From: a virus
Strand: one strand, 5' to 3'
IMG/VR virus record: IMGVR_UViG_3300031999_000174
Location: 1 to 25,348 of that record
DNA: 25,348 bases
The stretch's first letter is position 1. Every line of letters begins with the position of its first letter. Positions 2,479 through 8,999 of the stretch are shown here, one piece after another. The translations under genes and the position numbers were made by a program. Under the pieces are notes generated by a model. The model was not told the origin of the DNA. It worked only from the letters and a program-made list of their open reading frames with translations, and did no database searches.

Positions 2479-3396
2479 TTACTCAACGCCTTTACGGTAT
2501 AAGTCTTCTCCAGACCGTCGAATACTGCGGCCTGAAGTTGGCGTTTCGGCTGCTGCACTATTGAAGTCTCTCATCCCTGAAGTTGCATTATTCATCTGTG
2601 AAGCGAAATATGACATTGCTACAGCTGCAGCGATTATAACTGCGATTCCGACTCCTGTTAAGGCTAAGAATGTTGCATGGCTAATGTTTAGAGCATTCTG
2701 AGCGGCTACAGCGATCCATGTTGCAGCGGCTTTGATCTTATGAGCTATACTTGTCGTTATACTCGCGCCTGCATTCGAAGTTTCAGCTGTCGTATTAATT
2801 GCGATGCTAGCAGTGTGTCCAGTCGTTATAGTAGTCATAATTGCTTTGAGCCGAATCCATGCTCCCATAAGCGTTATGACGCTCATGATCGTGCTGATCC
2901 ACTTGCTGCTTTCCTTGTCAAGGATCCCGAAATTGCTAGCAAGACTCGTGACAGCGATTCCCATATGCCCAACTGCCATAAATCCTGAAGAGACGCTTCT
3001 TAAGCTAACATTAACTGCTTCAGCTTTTGCTCCAACTTCTGTAAATCCTGTTGCCGAAGCCTTCAAGCTCTCACTCATGTTTACTGCTGAGACGCTTGTC
3101 TGCTGAAAAGTAATGTTAGCAGCTTGAACTGAAGAAACATCTATCGGCGGGACTGATGGAATGTCAATAGGAGCAAAATTTATCGATATTGGAGAGCTTT
3201 CAATCTGAGCCTTAAGTCCTGCAGCATCTTCGCTTATGGTACTGAATGCTGGACTTGCCTGATTCTCTACGCTAATGAGGATTCTCTGCCCCGAAATCTG
3301 TGAAGCCATAACTCCAGCATCAGCAGCTACCCTAACGAATTCTGCACTTGCCAGATTATGAGCAATAATCGAGACTGCAAGTTCGTTAAAACTCAT
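2479..3396 (-). CDS. Tape measure protein (short)
   Basis: This 305-residue protein follows the gp10-like gene with an ATGA overlap and precedes the hub gene, the usual tape-measure position. It is rich in Ala, Ser, Ile and Thr and has long hydrophobic alpha-helical stretches in its second half, for example GVGIAVIIAAAVAMSYF near residues 250-266. No enzymatic motif is visible. Tape measures set tail length at roughly 0.15 nm per residue, so 305 residues would give a tail of about 45 nm, short for a siphovirus. Assignment rests on position, composition and hydrophobicity; sequence similarity alone would not identify it. Confidence 0.65.
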   Translation of the reverse strand: MSFNELAVSIIAHNLASAEFVRVAADAGVMASQISGQRILISVENQASPAFSTISEDAAGLKAQIESSPISINFAPIDIPSVPPIDVSSVQAANITFQQTSVSAVNMSESLKASATGFTEVGAKAEAVNVSLRSVSSGFMAVGHMGIAVTSLASNFGILDKESSKWISTIMSVITLMGAWIRLKAIMTTITTGHTASIAINTTAETSNAGASITTSIAHKIKAAATWIAVAAQNALNISHATFLALTGVGIAVIIAAAVAMSYFASQMNNATSGMRDFNSAAAETPTSGRSIRRSGEDLYRKGVE

Positions 3397-3764
3397 TGAA
3401 GACCAGCTCCTAACTTTGCAGCTTCTATCCCTTCAGAAATCATCTTCTCAAGTTGGTCAAGATACTTCTGAACTGCCGGAAAAATGTAGGGCTGAGCTCG
3501 CATATATCTAGTCCCGAATTCGACAAACAAAGCGTAAGTTGCCTCAGCGCCAATGCGAACCACCCAATCTTTGACTTGAGAATATATTGTACTCTGAAGA
3601 TAGCCTGTTCTAACAGGAACTTTAGCTCTAGCTTCAGCCTTAACAAGTTCAGCCCATTCACTCAATTTCGCTCGCACATAATCCTGTAGTGAAATGCCTA
3701 ACTTAGAGAGAGCTGCCTGAAACTGTTCAACGCCTTGAACTTGAAGGACTACTTCAACGGCCAT
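3393..3764 (-). CDS. HK97 gp10-like tail completion / minor structural protein
   Basis: The 123-residue product matches the HK97-gp10-like family pattern: an N-terminal helix (GVEQFQAALSKLG), a second helix, the motif KVPVRTGYLQSTI near residues 49-61, and ALFVEFGTRYMRAQPYIFPA near residues 78-97. The motifs 'vrTGxLrxSi' and 'yaxxvEfGTr.m.aqPfl.Pa' are family hallmarks. These proteins usually sit at the head-tail neck. Here the gene lies between the tail chaperones and the tape measure, away from the connector genes. Its ATG at 3764 overlaps the -1 frame end of the chaperone gene (stop at 3754), and its TGA overlaps the tape-measure ATG, so the genes are probably translationally coupled. Confidence 0.85.
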   Translation of the reverse strand: MAVEVVLQVQGVEQFQAALSKLGISLQDYVRAKLSEWAELVKAEARAKVPVRTGYLQSTIYSQVKDWVVRIGAEATYALFVEFGTRYMRAQPYIFPAVQKYLDQLEKMISEGIEAAKLGAGLQ

Positions 3765-4758: not shown

Positions 4759-5637
4759 TTAGCTGATGACGACGTCTCTAGCTGTGAACTTCACTTTTAC
4801 GCTTACTAAGTCTTCAATTCTAGTCGGCGTTGCGACAGTATCCCATTTGCAGTATTTGAAAAGAGCGCTACTAACTGGGCCTAGGTCAAACTTGAGGCTA
4901 AATTCATTATCAGAGACCATATCGTCGAATTCAGTATCATCTTCAAACTCAAACGTAATTTCGCCGTACAGGTTTCTGTGACGTTCCCGGAGATACTTTA
5001 TTAAGGAACTTGTTGATGGTGGACTTTGAATGCAAGGTACAGGCTTCAAGTTATTCTCTAAAGTCCATTTCCAATCAGTTACTTTAGTTGTTGTTACTTG
5101 AGTGCTTCCATCTGCGGCGCCGCGTGAAACTCCAACTTCGTTAAAGGCAACTGCTCCAGCATAATCGCCGTAACTTGCTCCAGCAATTTTTGCTGTTCCA
5201 AGAGAAAAACTTTTGCCGATCAATTCAACATTAGCTTTAATGAGGTCTTCAAGGTTACATTGAACGGTAAGTTTGTCAATTCTCATTCCTTTATACGTGA
5301 AACTAAGGATATTACTTGGAGTAGCCCACAAACTTTTGTAGTATATTGCCTCAATGCTTAAGCTGGTTAATGTTTGGGCATGCTGAATGAAACTGATCGG
5401 TGATTCACTGCTTAAGCAGTCCGGAATCTTGAGAAGAACGCGCTGGAGACCTTTCTTTATAGTCTGAAGATCTCTGCTTCCTACACCGCGAACCTTTATG
5501 AGGCCAGAATCAATACCTGGATCAACTGCTTCAGCGTTTATGCCGAGCATTGTTGGACTTGTTGGAGTAACTCCATATACGCTTTCAGCTACGAAATAGA
5601 GGCGAAACTCATGCGCTCCATACGTTTCTACGCTCAT
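4759..5637 (-). CDS. Major tail (tube) protein
   Basis: The 292-residue protein starts with an extended YFVAESVYGVTPTSPTMLGI segment, typical of siphovirus tail tube proteins ('E.tyGttp..P.f'). It ends with a beta strand, LVSVKVKFTARDVVIS, also typical. The middle is beta-rich and contains TDWKWTLENNLKPV. The position after the terminator and before the chaperones and tape measure agrees with canonical tail gene order. Six-fold rings of this protein would form the tail tube. The start ATG at 5637 has an upstream GGGAGTGTGA-like ribosome site and overlaps the stop of a 19-codon mini ORF. Confidence 0.8.
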   Translation of the reverse strand: MSVETYGAHEFRLYFVAESVYGVTPTSPTMLGINAEAVDPGIDSGLIKVRGVGSRDLQTIKKGLQRVLLKIPDCLSSESPISFIQHAQTLTSLSIEAIYYKSLWATPSNILSFTYKGMRIDKLTVQCNLEDLIKANVELIGKSFSLGTAKIAGASYGDYAGAVAFNEVGVSRGAADGSTQVTTTKVTDWKWTLENNLKPVPCIQSPPSTSSLIKYLRERHRNLYGEITFEFEDDTEFDDMVSDNEFSLKFDLGPVSSALFKYCKWDTVATPTRIEDLVSVKVKFTARDVVIS

Positions 5638-5961: not shown

Positions 5962-6996
5962 TTAGGAGACTGTTTCAAACATGTAGCCCTTAAGCTTTAG
6001 TTCTGTTTTCCATAGATAAGGCTTCGCATTAGTGTCGTTAAGTTCACGAAAGCTTAAGACGTCACAGAATGTTAAGCCTGTTACTTGAAGGGTACATTCA
6101 ACGAAATCACCAGTTATTGAAGAGGGGTCGCTTCCATTACTTGGATATGTACTCCGGACTAAAACGTGGAGGTATCCATTAGCGTCAACATGGTTTATGA
6201 GGTCAGCTGTTAACGTAATAGTTGTTACTTCATCTACTGCGCTTGAAGTACCAGTCTGAGTATGAGTCCATGCGCTTGTTGAGTGGTCCCATATTTTGAA
6301 GGTTATACCAGGCGTAGGAGGCGGAGTTAAGCCAGGCTGAGCGCCTGTTCCGTAGCCTTCAAAAGTTAAGACTAACTTTTTGAGGCATTGTTCTCTTGCT
6401 TCAAGCTCTGAAATTGTTGTTGAAGTTGTATTTTTTCCAACTTTGAAGCTGAAGAGAAATTGGCTATATTTCGTGTTACTTGTTGTTGACTTGGTATGTC
6501 GATTATTATTGCTTGTCCAGAAATGTTGATAATCAGCTACAGATAATTCAGTCCACACTGTACTATTTGGAGCGAGTTCTGTTGCGTCAGCTCCTTCATA
6601 TGCTTTGTGAGTTGTTGAATAATAGCCGAGACCATTAAAATTGTAGATTGTTTTGTAAGGCAAGTTACGGTTAGCTTGGATAACAGCTAATATTCCAGCG
6701 AGAGTTTTATCACGCATTTCTCGAGCAGGATCTATCTGAATAGCCCTATCAACTGTGTGAATTAAACATCTTAGATAGATCATTCGCCACCTTATAGTTG
6801 AAGCTAGATTAACCTTGTTAATATCTTCTGATTCAAGCCCAAGAGTCACTACTGCATCGTAAGTCTTCATAAACTCCCTGTCATAATGTTCTGGACTATA
6901 GAGTATACTAGCAACGCTTGCATTATTCCGAATGACGCTAACTTTCGTTTTCAAGAGCCGCAAAATTGTTGTCACAGGATTTTCAAGCTCACTCAT
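5962..6996 (-). CDS. Tail terminator-like protein with added beta-sandwich domain
   Basis: The ATG at 6996 overlaps the stop of the preceding gene (ATGA). Residues about 1-115 fit the tail terminator pattern: NPVTTILRLLKTKVSVIRN, then YDREFMKTYDAVVTLGLE and a helix REMRDKTLAGILAVIQANRN. Residues about 140-325 form a separate Thr/Ser-rich beta domain resembling jelly-roll adhesion modules (LVLTFEGYGTG, TFKIWDHSTSAWTH, DANGYLHVLVRSTYPS). The last 20 residues look like a closing terminator strand, so the module may be inserted rather than appended. With 344 residues it is more than twice the usual terminator length. It would cap the tail tube at the neck while presenting a surface domain. The terminator call is moderate. 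Confidence 0.55.
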   Translation of the reverse strand: MSELENPVTTILRLLKTKVSVIRNNASVASILYSPEHYDREFMKTYDAVVTLGLESEDINKVNLASTIRWRMIYLRCLIHTVDRAIQIDPAREMRDKTLAGILAVIQANRNLPYKTIYNFNGLGYYSTTHKAYEGADATELAPNSTVWTELSVADYQHFWTSNNNRHTKSTTSNTKYSQFLFSFKVGKNTTSTTISELEAREQCLKKLVLTFEGYGTGAQPGLTPPPTPGITFKIWDHSTSAWTHTQTGTSSAVDEVTTITLTADLINHVDANGYLHVLVRSTYPSNGSDPSSITGDFVECTLQVTGLTFCDVLSFRELNDTNAKPYLWKTELKLKGYMFETVS

Positions 6997-8612
6997 GTAG
7001 CCATAAGCCTCCGTAAACTAAGCTGATAGAAATAGGGCACGTTTCCTTTTACGTGAAGCTGAACACTTTGGACTTCGTAGTCATCTCCCTTTCTTCGAAT
7101 CTTATCATGGTTTCTGACAGGGATAAATGTGAAGCCGTTAAGATAGTCTTCAATGATATAGCCAGCTTCAATAATGACTTCTTCAGCGCGTGCTGGCTGC
7201 ATGAAAGCTTTAATTTCTAAAGGATCTGAATAGGTTACGCTTTGGACTGCTTCTTGAATAGAAAAGAGCTCGACAACTTCACCATAACCTTCTAGAGCTT
7301 TCGTAAATTCTGTCAAGGGAGCAACATAGTTCAGGAGCATTCTTCCGATCCATGTAACGCTTGCATTAGCTTTCTGAGGAGTAACAGGCGCAAAAGTCCC
7401 GAAGACAGGACCCCAATACAGAAACTCTTCAGGGTACATGTCAACGATAAGACAGCTTAATGCATAGCTAGGCGGATCCCAATCTTTCCGGAGAGGAGCA
7501 AGGATGCCGATGCTTATTGCATCATAATATTCGCATGCTGGAAAGCGGCTTACTACATCAATGTAGCCAGGCCAGCATACAGCAGGCCAGTAAGCAGGAT
7601 GGCTACCTGTTTGTTTGATAGCGTTTACATAGTCATAGATGTGCTGGACTGTTGTTGAAAATCCTTCGTAGTAATATAAGCCTAAGAGTGCGAAGCTGAT
7701 AACATCATCATAGACTTCACTTTCAGTTAACCCTATTCTGTGCCATTCTCCATCGCCTGAAGGGAGAGGATCAAACCACATCCAGATATCATTTAAGCCT
7801 TCGACTAGGAAGTCTCGCGCGTCACTCATCATAAGAGTATATATTGCTGCATTTGCAACGTCGTAAGTGTCATTGAGCATTTTCAAGCCGATTAAACAGT
7901 AAAGGTTTTCAACGCTCATACTTACGACCCAAACGTCTGAAGAGTCTACATATGTTGCGAAGCCCCCATAATACGTATCTTGAAGCGCTAAAACTGTTGG
8001 CTCATTCTGCATATTGAAGAGAAACGTTCTTCCTGCCAAGATAGCAGATGCCAGATGGTCAGCATCGCCTGTTAAGGAATATGCTTTAAGAAGAGCTGGA
8101 ATAGCGCGACCTGCATCAATACTCCAGTATTCGTCGCTTCCTTCTGAGTTTACGAATCCTCCGTAAGCTTTCAAACCTGCATTTACGCATTGTTGAGTGA
8201 TTAGCCAGTCAGCTAGAGACTGAATCTTTGCCAGAACAGTTGTCTTCAAGGCACCTGCCGAGAGAGTCCCATAATAATCATAGAAGAATTCGATTGCGAA
8301 AGCAGCTGGAAAAGTGCCTTTCCCATAGGCAATATCCGGATGGTCAACAGCTCCATCTTTTGCCACATAATAAGTGTAAGCAAGATTCGTCGTCATTGTC
8401 ACGACATTTACGAGAACACTATCAACAGTATTCCATTCACTATGAGCACTGTCTTTGATTTCTACAGGCATACCTGCAAGAAAGAGAGCTCCATTAGTAA
8501 CAGTTACTTCTTTCTGTCCAGCAGTTGCATCACCAGTAATTAATGCAGAGAGGACATAGTACCAAGGCGCATAGTAATAGACGAAATCATAGTATGCTTG
8601 TGGAAAAGTCAT
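6993..8612 (-). CDS. Fusion of six-hairpin glycosidase-like domain with head-closure (neck) protein
   Basis: The ATG at 8612 follows GGAGTGAT. The 539-residue protein has three parts. Residues about 24-90 are a beta module (ITGDATAGQKEVTVTNG). Residues about 90-430 have the repeating helical, aromatic-rich pattern of an (alpha/alpha)6 barrel, as in six-hairpin glycosidases, lyases and epimerases (DEYWSIDAGRAIPALLKAYS). Residues about 440-539 read as a head-closure protein: TYSDPLEIKAFMQPA, NHDKIRRKGDDYEVQSVQL and a final YFYQLSLRRL. The gene lies between the connector and terminator genes, exactly where head closure is expected. The catalytic residues cannot be assigned, so hydrolysis of a host glycan is a hypothesis; it may only bind. 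Confidence 0.65.
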   Translation of the reverse strand: MTFPQAYYDFVYYYAPWYYVLSALITGDATAGQKEVTVTNGALFLAGMPVEIKDSAHSEWNTVDSVLVNVVTMTTNLAYTYYVAKDGAVDHPDIAYGKGTFPAAFAIEFFYDYYGTLSAGALKTTVLAKIQSLADWLITQQCVNAGLKAYGGFVNSEGSDEYWSIDAGRAIPALLKAYSLTGDADHLASAILAGRTFLFNMQNEPTVLALQDTYYGGFATYVDSSDVWVVSMSVENLYCLIGLKMLNDTYDVANAAIYTLMMSDARDFLVEGLNDIWMWFDPLPSGDGEWHRIGLTESEVYDDVISFALLGLYYYEGFSTTVQHIYDYVNAIKQTGSHPAYWPAVCWPGYIDVVSRFPACEYYDAISIGILAPLRKDWDPPSYALSCLIVDMYPEEFLYWGPVFGTFAPVTPQKANASVTWIGRMLLNYVAPLTEFTKALEGYGEVVELFSIQEAVQSVTYSDPLEIKAFMQPARAEEVIIEAGYIIEDYLNGFTFIPVRNHDKIRRKGDDYEVQSVQLHVKGNVPYFYQLSLRRLMAT

Positions 8613-8615
8613 CTA

Positions 8616-8999
8616 TCACTCCTCATCTGATTCAGCAACTTTGAACGTATCATTTTTGAGTTTCTTGATCGCCGCCTCGAGGCGCTTGTTCAAGATGTCT
8701 AGGTTAATGTTTCCTGCTTGGCCGCTGCTCTGGCTAACGCTGAAGCTTCCTATTGTGAAGCTTTGTCCGCTTGTTGCTCCTCCGCTTACATAGTTGGCAC
8801 AGTAGATCGCTGCTAGATTCGTAATTGCTGAAGCTGCCAACTGAGTACAACTTGAATAATCTAAAGTTTGTCCGATTTCTGCGCTGATCTCTGCTGCAGC
8901 ATCAACAAGGAATTTGGTGACTTGAGCATCGCTTATTGTTCCAACAGAAATGTTGAGTCTGCCTCTTACGTCATTAGGTGTGACTGCAACCATAAACAT
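8616..8999 (-). CDS. Head-tail connector (adaptor) protein
   Basis: The 127-residue helical protein matches the HK97 gp6 / SPP1 gp15 adaptor pattern. It starts with VTPNDVRGRLNISVGTISDA, followed by the helix VTKFLVDAAAEISAEIG. A later helical part includes NLAAIYCANY, and the C-terminus is NLDILNKRLEAAIKKL. It would form the ring below the portal. Two ATGs are possible, 8999 and 8993. It starts the neck-tail block and is separated from the fibre cassette by 64 nt, the largest gap in this part of the operon. Confidence 0.75.
   Translation of the reverse strand: MFMVAVTPNDVRGRLNISVGTISDAQVTKFLVDAAAEISAEIGQTLDYSSCTQLAASAITNLAAIYCANYVSGGATSGQSFTIGSFSVSQSSGQAGNINLDILNKRLEAAIKKLKNDTFKVAESDEE

Follow-up and report, generated by a model that had tools for sequence, protein, structure and literature searches.

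What is an enzyme-like fold doing in the neck of a tailed virus? The question is raised by a single gene in the window, by which we mean the whole 25,348-nucleotide stretch analysed here, an IMG/VR virus record (IMGVR_UViG_3300031999_000174) whose gene content is that of a tailed virus. An earlier note on this DNA had proposed that a glycosidase-like barrel and a head-closure protein are fused in one chain at 6993-8612, and was silent on the strand. The open reading frame is on the minus strand. It begins 3 bases past the adaptor gene (8616-8999) and overlaps the downstream gene (5962-6996) by 4 bases, within a compact late gene cluster that runs through terminase, portal, protease, capsid, a variable block, adaptor, fusion gene, a 344-aa gene, tail tube, and an HK97 gp10-like gene. 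The genes around the fusion are as follows:

8616..8999, minus strand: Ad1-like head-tail adaptor, 127 aa (phrog_541 E 5e-4, phrog_302 E 1e-3)
6993..8612, minus strand: head-closure fusion gene, 539 aa, with an N-terminal helix, an optional beta-domain, a six-hairpin barrel, and a head-closure domain
5962..6996, minus strand: tail terminator, 344 aa (Z 14.7 to an HFTV1 tail chain, 14.3 to T5 p142, 14.3 to the P74-26 neck, 11.3 to T4 gp15)
4759..5637, minus strand: tail tube protein (PF18906 E 2e-13)
3393..3764, minus strand: HK97 gp10-like tail completion protein (phrog_5 E 4e-21, PF04883)

The last of these genes (window 3393-3764) follows the tail tube gene; usually it precedes it.

A fusion of this kind could be an artifact. 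A wrong-strand or chance frame is ruled out by the intact minus-strand frame and by the plus strand, which is rich in stops across 6993-8612. An assembly chimera is likewise ruled out, because the frame recurs on three further IMG/VR contigs, where the protein is identical (100%), and in 121 distinct relatives. The AlphaFold2 model of the 539-aa chain, built on a 66-sequence alignment, has a pLDDT of 94.2 and a pTM of 0.92, and comprises an N-terminal helix (residues 5-14), a barrel (about 90-430), and a closure domain (about 436-539), the latter two matching the domain limits given in the earlier note. Together, the reading frame, the 121 intact relatives, and the model bear out the single-chain fusion.

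Relatives were found mainly through alignments. Used as a single sequence, the fusion protein recovered only its identical copies from IMG/VR, nothing in named phages by tblastn, and nothing in GTDB genomes. A search with the tail tube gene gave 23 loci, of which those reaching far enough upstream carry the fusion. A 16-sequence alignment of the fusion recognised 197 stretches in IMG/VR, from which 80 loci were kept, and an alignment-based scan of GTDB returned 20 loci. Sixteen of these 20 carry the name Candidatus Bathyarchaeota, among them one complete chromosome and some contigs longer than 300 kb, and one (JAAKEZ010000002) is the contig of the published provirus BATPV1 (PMC11705971). Single fusion contigs were binned as Gallionella, Bipolaricaulis, Crenarchaeota, and Njordarchaeum, and may represent binning errors or other hosts. 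The hosts are mainly Bathyarchaeia: a barrel match occurs in 40 of 257 Bathyarchaeia genomes and is strong in 38, and the frames with strong full-length matches are about 460-550 aa long and thus fused. One genome (G005, Bathyarchaeota A05DMB-2) has six copies of the fusion gene on six contigs, which suggests many proviruses or fragments.

The gene order around the 121 distinct intact fused proteins is stable. The terminator is next to the fusion in 117 of the 121, and the tail tube is present in 86 of the 89 loci with enough DNA. A recognised Ad1-like adaptor lies upstream in 90 of 115 and about 25 loci show none recognised, so the adaptor cannot be said to be always upstream. Several apparent departures from the fusion were set aside. 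The genes that looked unfused in L024, L079, and L080 consist of pieces overlapping in another frame, and are frameshifts or sequencing errors; partial barrel matches in L162, L164, and L165 run off contig ends; and those in L163, L169, and L170 appear to be broken proviruses.

The C-terminal part of the chain can be placed with some precision:

6996..7307, minus strand: head-closure (Hc1, SPP1 gp16-like) beta-barrel, residues 436-539 (8hdr_A E 6e-5, TMt 0.77)

In a Foldseek search, this modelled domain matched a neck chain of Pam3 (8hdr_A, E 6e-5, TMt 0.77), and dozens of predicted viral proteins resemble it as well, among them head-tail joining proteins, stoppers, and SPP1 head-tail adaptors. 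These matches uphold the proposal of a normal head-closure C-terminus of about 100 residues. They come from fold comparison; searched by sequence against the PDB, the domain gave only chance matches, and the phrog_939 “head protein” profile reaches E 1.5e-5 in the relative L017 and only 0.12 for the window protein. A helix (435-443) directly precedes the beta-barrel in the model. The region 471-490, which we compared with the flexible plug loop by which known Hc1 proteins close the DNA channel, is modelled as a hairpin with lower pLDDT (76, 68) and contains the invariant residues E482, G484, and Y485. With a fold of about 100 aa, a gene position between adaptor and terminator, and a stand-alone homologue of normal size (described below), we take the protein to be a head-closure (Hc1) protein. 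It shares with SPP1 gp16 and lambda gpFII, the classical stoppers, the C-terminal beta-barrel, the place in the gene order, and a core of about 105 aa; proteins of that type have about 110 aa, whereas the window protein adds a 430-residue barrel region before the core (PMC9701221, PMC4362835).

Two other Bathyarchaeia loci are unusual in their head-closure domain or position. On a 1.2-Mb contig, a host Topoisomerase VI B gene (L239:7327-9411; PF09239 E 5e-61) has a C-terminal domain that matches the viral head-closure profile at E 1e-16 and adjoins a topoisomerase VI A-like gene; perhaps a host gene captured a provirus remnant. In a provirus, the gene at the head-closure position (L241:3783-4421, 212 aa) has an insert at about 36-120 that looks by eye like fibronectin III, and would be a different add-on to the same ring.

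The stand-alone homologue occurs in a provirus (L238) found by searching with the closure domain. It has the same gene order and a related tail tube (E 1e-123), its terminator is short (153 aa), and its closure protein is plain and unfused, with 111 aa from a Met at 8168 and a phrog_939 match at E 8.7e-8. Because this plain protein occupies the same place, the barrel is an addition at the N-terminus of an otherwise ordinary head-closure protein; because it is unfused, the closure part is a complete protein alone, and tails of this type can do without the barrel. The provirus represents either the ancestral state or a loss of the barrel. Its tail region also encodes a protein with weak GH32/GH43/GH130 glycosidase matches (L238:14682-15683). 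Further, two loci show exchange of modules. In one (L063:2-7548), the fusion-bearing neck-tail module is seen by eye to lie behind a different head module with another adaptor-like gene, and this head module has no detectable similarity to the window adaptor; in the other (L006:9989-20870), the head genes are nearly the same as those of the window (capsid 86% identical) and the neck and tail are wholly different, with no barrel. Thus, whole neck-tail modules are swapped at the head boundary, and the barrel is dispensable for that head type.

The barrel itself is defined by its predicted fold and by its conserved residues:

7323..8345, minus strand: (alpha/alpha)6 six-hairpin barrel, residues 90-430 (AlphaFold2, Foldseek; VIA-align Z 28.4)
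7704..7709, minus strand: codons of D302-D303, an acidic pair that opens an inner helix and is present in 100% of 79 sequences; putative catalytic residues
7521..7523, minus strand: codon of D364, an acid that does not vary and lies in the loop preceding inner helix five; putative catalytic residue

In the AlphaFold2 model the helices pair as six hairpins, and the best VIA-align match among PDB enzymes spans 303 residues (Z 28.4, rmsd 3.2 A). By Foldseek and VIA-align, the barrel resembles sugar epimerases and GH8-like, GH88, and GH76 enzymes at Z 24-28; the VIA-align comparison was made for residues 1-436 only, and is thus uninformative for the closure domain. The helix pattern and these scores agree with the region of about 340 residues that had been read as resembling six-hairpin glycosidases and lyases, and the fold search called for in the earlier note found matches to both six-hairpin (Z up to 28.4) and head-closure proteins. 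Mean identity among relatives is 60% in the barrel vs. 51% in the closure domain. Across 79 sequences below 85% identity, the invariant barrel residues are Q141, W290, R292, D302, D303, Y341, W347, Y350, Y363, D364, R375, D379, and W400. Active sites of the (alpha/alpha)6 fold lie in the loops leading into the inner helices, and most of the invariant acids (D302-D303, D364) and aromatics fall in loops expected at the barrel mouth. Counted over the whole barrel, invariant polar and aromatic residues make up 19 of 182 positions on the presumed active face vs. 8 of 156 elsewhere, a modest enrichment (p 0.054; p 0.14 and 0.050 at stricter thresholds).

Can the barrel be assigned to a named enzyme family? 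The commonest Pfam match is D-glucuronyl C5-epimerase (PF06662), found in 46 of 66 members at E up to 0.05; C5-epim_C is weakly matched by the barrel sequence, and the window protein scores 20.8 bits vs. a Pfam cut-off of 23.3, which several relatives pass (up to 25.6). The catalytic Glu-Tyr pair of the human enzyme is E499-Y500, and in two different weak alignments the Glu position is variable in the fusion family. AGE and cellobiose 2-epimerase use two catalytic histidines, and no barrel His is conserved in more than 88% of the 79 sequences; without an invariant His, the barrel lacks the residues for AGE chemistry. GH88/GH105 enzymes have a catalytic Asp pair at set places, and GH76 enzymes an adjacent one. 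Invariant Asp residues are present in the barrel, where hhalign to a single GH88 sequence gave no usable alignment, and D302-D303 is both adjacent and invariant. In general, the hhalign comparisons with single GH88 and C5-epimerase sequences were too weak for mapping a whole active site. We therefore assign no reaction, since the C5-epimerase and AGE signatures are missing and GH88 and GH76 are undecided, and place the modelled barrel in the six-hairpin fold only. A shared fold by itself demonstrates no function. The enzymes that have this fold in common with the barrel (GH8-like 3ren, GH88, GH76, AGE, cellobiose 2-epimerase, and D-glucuronyl C5-epimerase) are not parts of a virion ring protein. 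Among cellular proteins, the closest cousin found, a free GH76/GH88-like six-hairpin protein of 407 aa, is encoded in a glycosyltransferase cluster (L168:1401-2624).

Two further domains were overlooked in the earlier note, as was the identity of the 5962-6996 gene:

8346..8549, minus strand: optional inserted beta-domain, residues 22-89, absent from part of the fusion family and weakly like the K1-lyase Rider
6079..6657, minus strand: CBM-like beta-sandwich insert, terminator residues about 114-306 (Z 14.6 to a phi812 baseplate protein, about 8 to CBM families)

The beta-domain (about 22-89) is weakly similar to the Rider domain of the K1 capsule lyase. It recurs in a tail tube protein (L094:8276-9355) and in tail proteins of about 1100 aa (L013:5705-8992, L016:13152-16481). 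Since it is optional and recurs in tail proteins, it looks like a mobile virion decoration domain. The downstream protein is modelled with a pLDDT of 91.8 and has the terminator fold (Z 11-15) in common with the HFTV1 tail completion protein, T5 p142, the P74-26 neck protein, and T4 gp15, known examples that lack the CBM-like insert. Similarity of the insert to several CBM families, at Z of about 8, is borderline by the tool's own standard for a meaningful score. The fused loci comprise 103 with a long terminator and 10 with a short one (146-155 aa) without the insert. No intact locus has the CBM-like insert without the barrel, the two exceptions in our table being frameshifted fusions. With one bare-neck locus known, the pattern is at most suggestive.

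How might these parts work together in the particle? From gene order and fold, we infer that the fusion sits at the neck. Its C-terminal domain would form a ring, probably hexameric, with the adaptor ring on one side and the tail terminator on the other, and would there close the DNA channel. SPP1 gp16 is a hexamer whose N-terminus touches the adaptor (PMC9701221), and the stopper of roseophage R4C has an N-terminal helix at its adaptor contact (PMC10276861), a role that helix 435-443 of the fusion may play. Joined before the closure domain, the barrel would lie outside the channel, near the adaptor, so that about six barrels might project outward as a collar beside six CBM-like domains of the terminator ring. 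The earlier note had allowed for six or twelve barrels; by analogy with the SPP1 gp16 hexamer (PMC9701221), six is the better guess and twelve the poorer one. During adsorption, the collar would bind, and trim or remodel, glycans of the host surface around the particle, either those of the S-layer or extracellular polysaccharide. We judge it somewhat probable that the protein is a head-closure ring protein of a Bathyarchaeia tailed virus with a glycan-active-type barrel, forming a neck collar that binds and trims or remodels host glycans. More tentatively, the closure ring with its putative catalytic barrels and the CBM-bearing terminators could form a two-ring glycan-processing neck, in effect an enzyme-plus-CBM glycosidase in two parts encircling the DNA gate, and neck rings in general could be a platform on which add-ons are exchanged; this extension is possible, and we would not lean on it.

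The most serious alternative, which we regard as unlikely without dismissing it, is that the barrel is catalytically inactive and lectin-like, so that the collar does no more than hold on to host glycans in an early, reversible stage of attachment. The missing known catalytic signature and the binding-type CBM-like domain in the adjacent ring fit such a role, and the conserved aromatics W290, W347, W400, Y341, Y350, and Y363 would suit binding too; however, invariance of D302-D303, D364, and R292 in 79 diverse sequences exceeds what binding usually needs. It is improbable that the barrel has a structural role alone, adding bulk that steadies the neck or fixes its spacing while making no contact with glycans. 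Accessory domains of a structural kind do occur on neck rings (in the R4C adaptor, an Ig-like domain touches the capsid; PMC10276861), but the barrel is more conserved than the closure domain, its invariant polar and aromatic residues lie in the loops leading from outer to inner helices, and the related bare-neck module functions without it. Still less probable, by a wide step, is a barrel that works within the cell or during release (on the sugars of host-surface or virion glycoproteins, for instance) and is only a passenger in the virion: although its nearest cellular cousin lies among glycosyltransferases, every intact relative has it fused to a structural ring protein, for which a free intracellular enzyme would have no reason. 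Finally, that the C-terminal domain is another tail-tube-like beta-barrel of a protein located elsewhere in the tail is hardly credible, for although such barrels recur in tail proteins (a gp16-like domain is also part of the phi29 knob protein; PMC9701221) and the gene travels with the tail module, even to a different head module, it sits at the head-tail gene boundary from adaptor to terminator, its matches are head-tail joining proteins, and its stand-alone homologue matches a head-protein family.

The glycan-processing collar that we favour has partial counterparts. In the archaeal virus HFTV1, turrets on the capsid carry deacetylase-like heads proposed to weaken the S-layer glycan matrix (PMC12494034), and the collar may well do a similar job, or at least bind such glycans. 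Like the collar, these turrets display, at a distance from the tail tip, a predicted glycan-acting enzyme together with a domain of carbohydrate-binding type; unlike it, they have a deacetylase fold and stand on capsid hexamers, in a virion whose description goes from HTC to TCP and names no separate closure ring (PMC12494034). In phi29, 12 appendages hang from the collar; gp12 serves host recognition there, but as separate trimeric spikes of another fold, unfused to the closure ring (PMC6542822). The staphylococcal “pre-neck appendage” depolymerase Dpo7 is an exopolysaccharide degrader from the structural region whose neck position is in name only, and which has another fold and is unfused (PMC4658415). 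The R4C adaptor likewise belongs to a neck ring and has an accessory domain at its N-terminus, but it is an adaptor rather than a head-closure protein, and the domain is of a structural, Ig-like, non-enzyme fold (PMC10276861). The suggestion of a new position for a depolymerase-like enzyme was thus too strong, given the phi29 appendages (PMC6542822) and HFTV1 turrets (PMC12494034). What stands as new is the covalent fusion of the barrel to the head-closure ring, together with the CBM-like domain in the next ring; adhesins or enzymes near necks were already known in other forms. Such fusions are not mentioned under the terms searched in a paper on neck classification (PMC4362835), nor in the main-text passages searched in papers on Bathyarchaeia and archaeal tailed viruses.

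Head-closure proteins are conserved in long-tailed phages and treated as structural plugs; here, the ring carries an enzyme fold. The viruses that bear the fusion form a widespread group, with hosts in an abundant and mostly uncultured archaeal class, and the bare-neck provirus provides a natural comparison for the fused necks. Searches for virion enzymes that are restricted to tail fibres and spikes can overlook candidates in the neck, and the collar offers a testable idea for how Bathyarchaeia viruses handle the glycan coat of their hosts.
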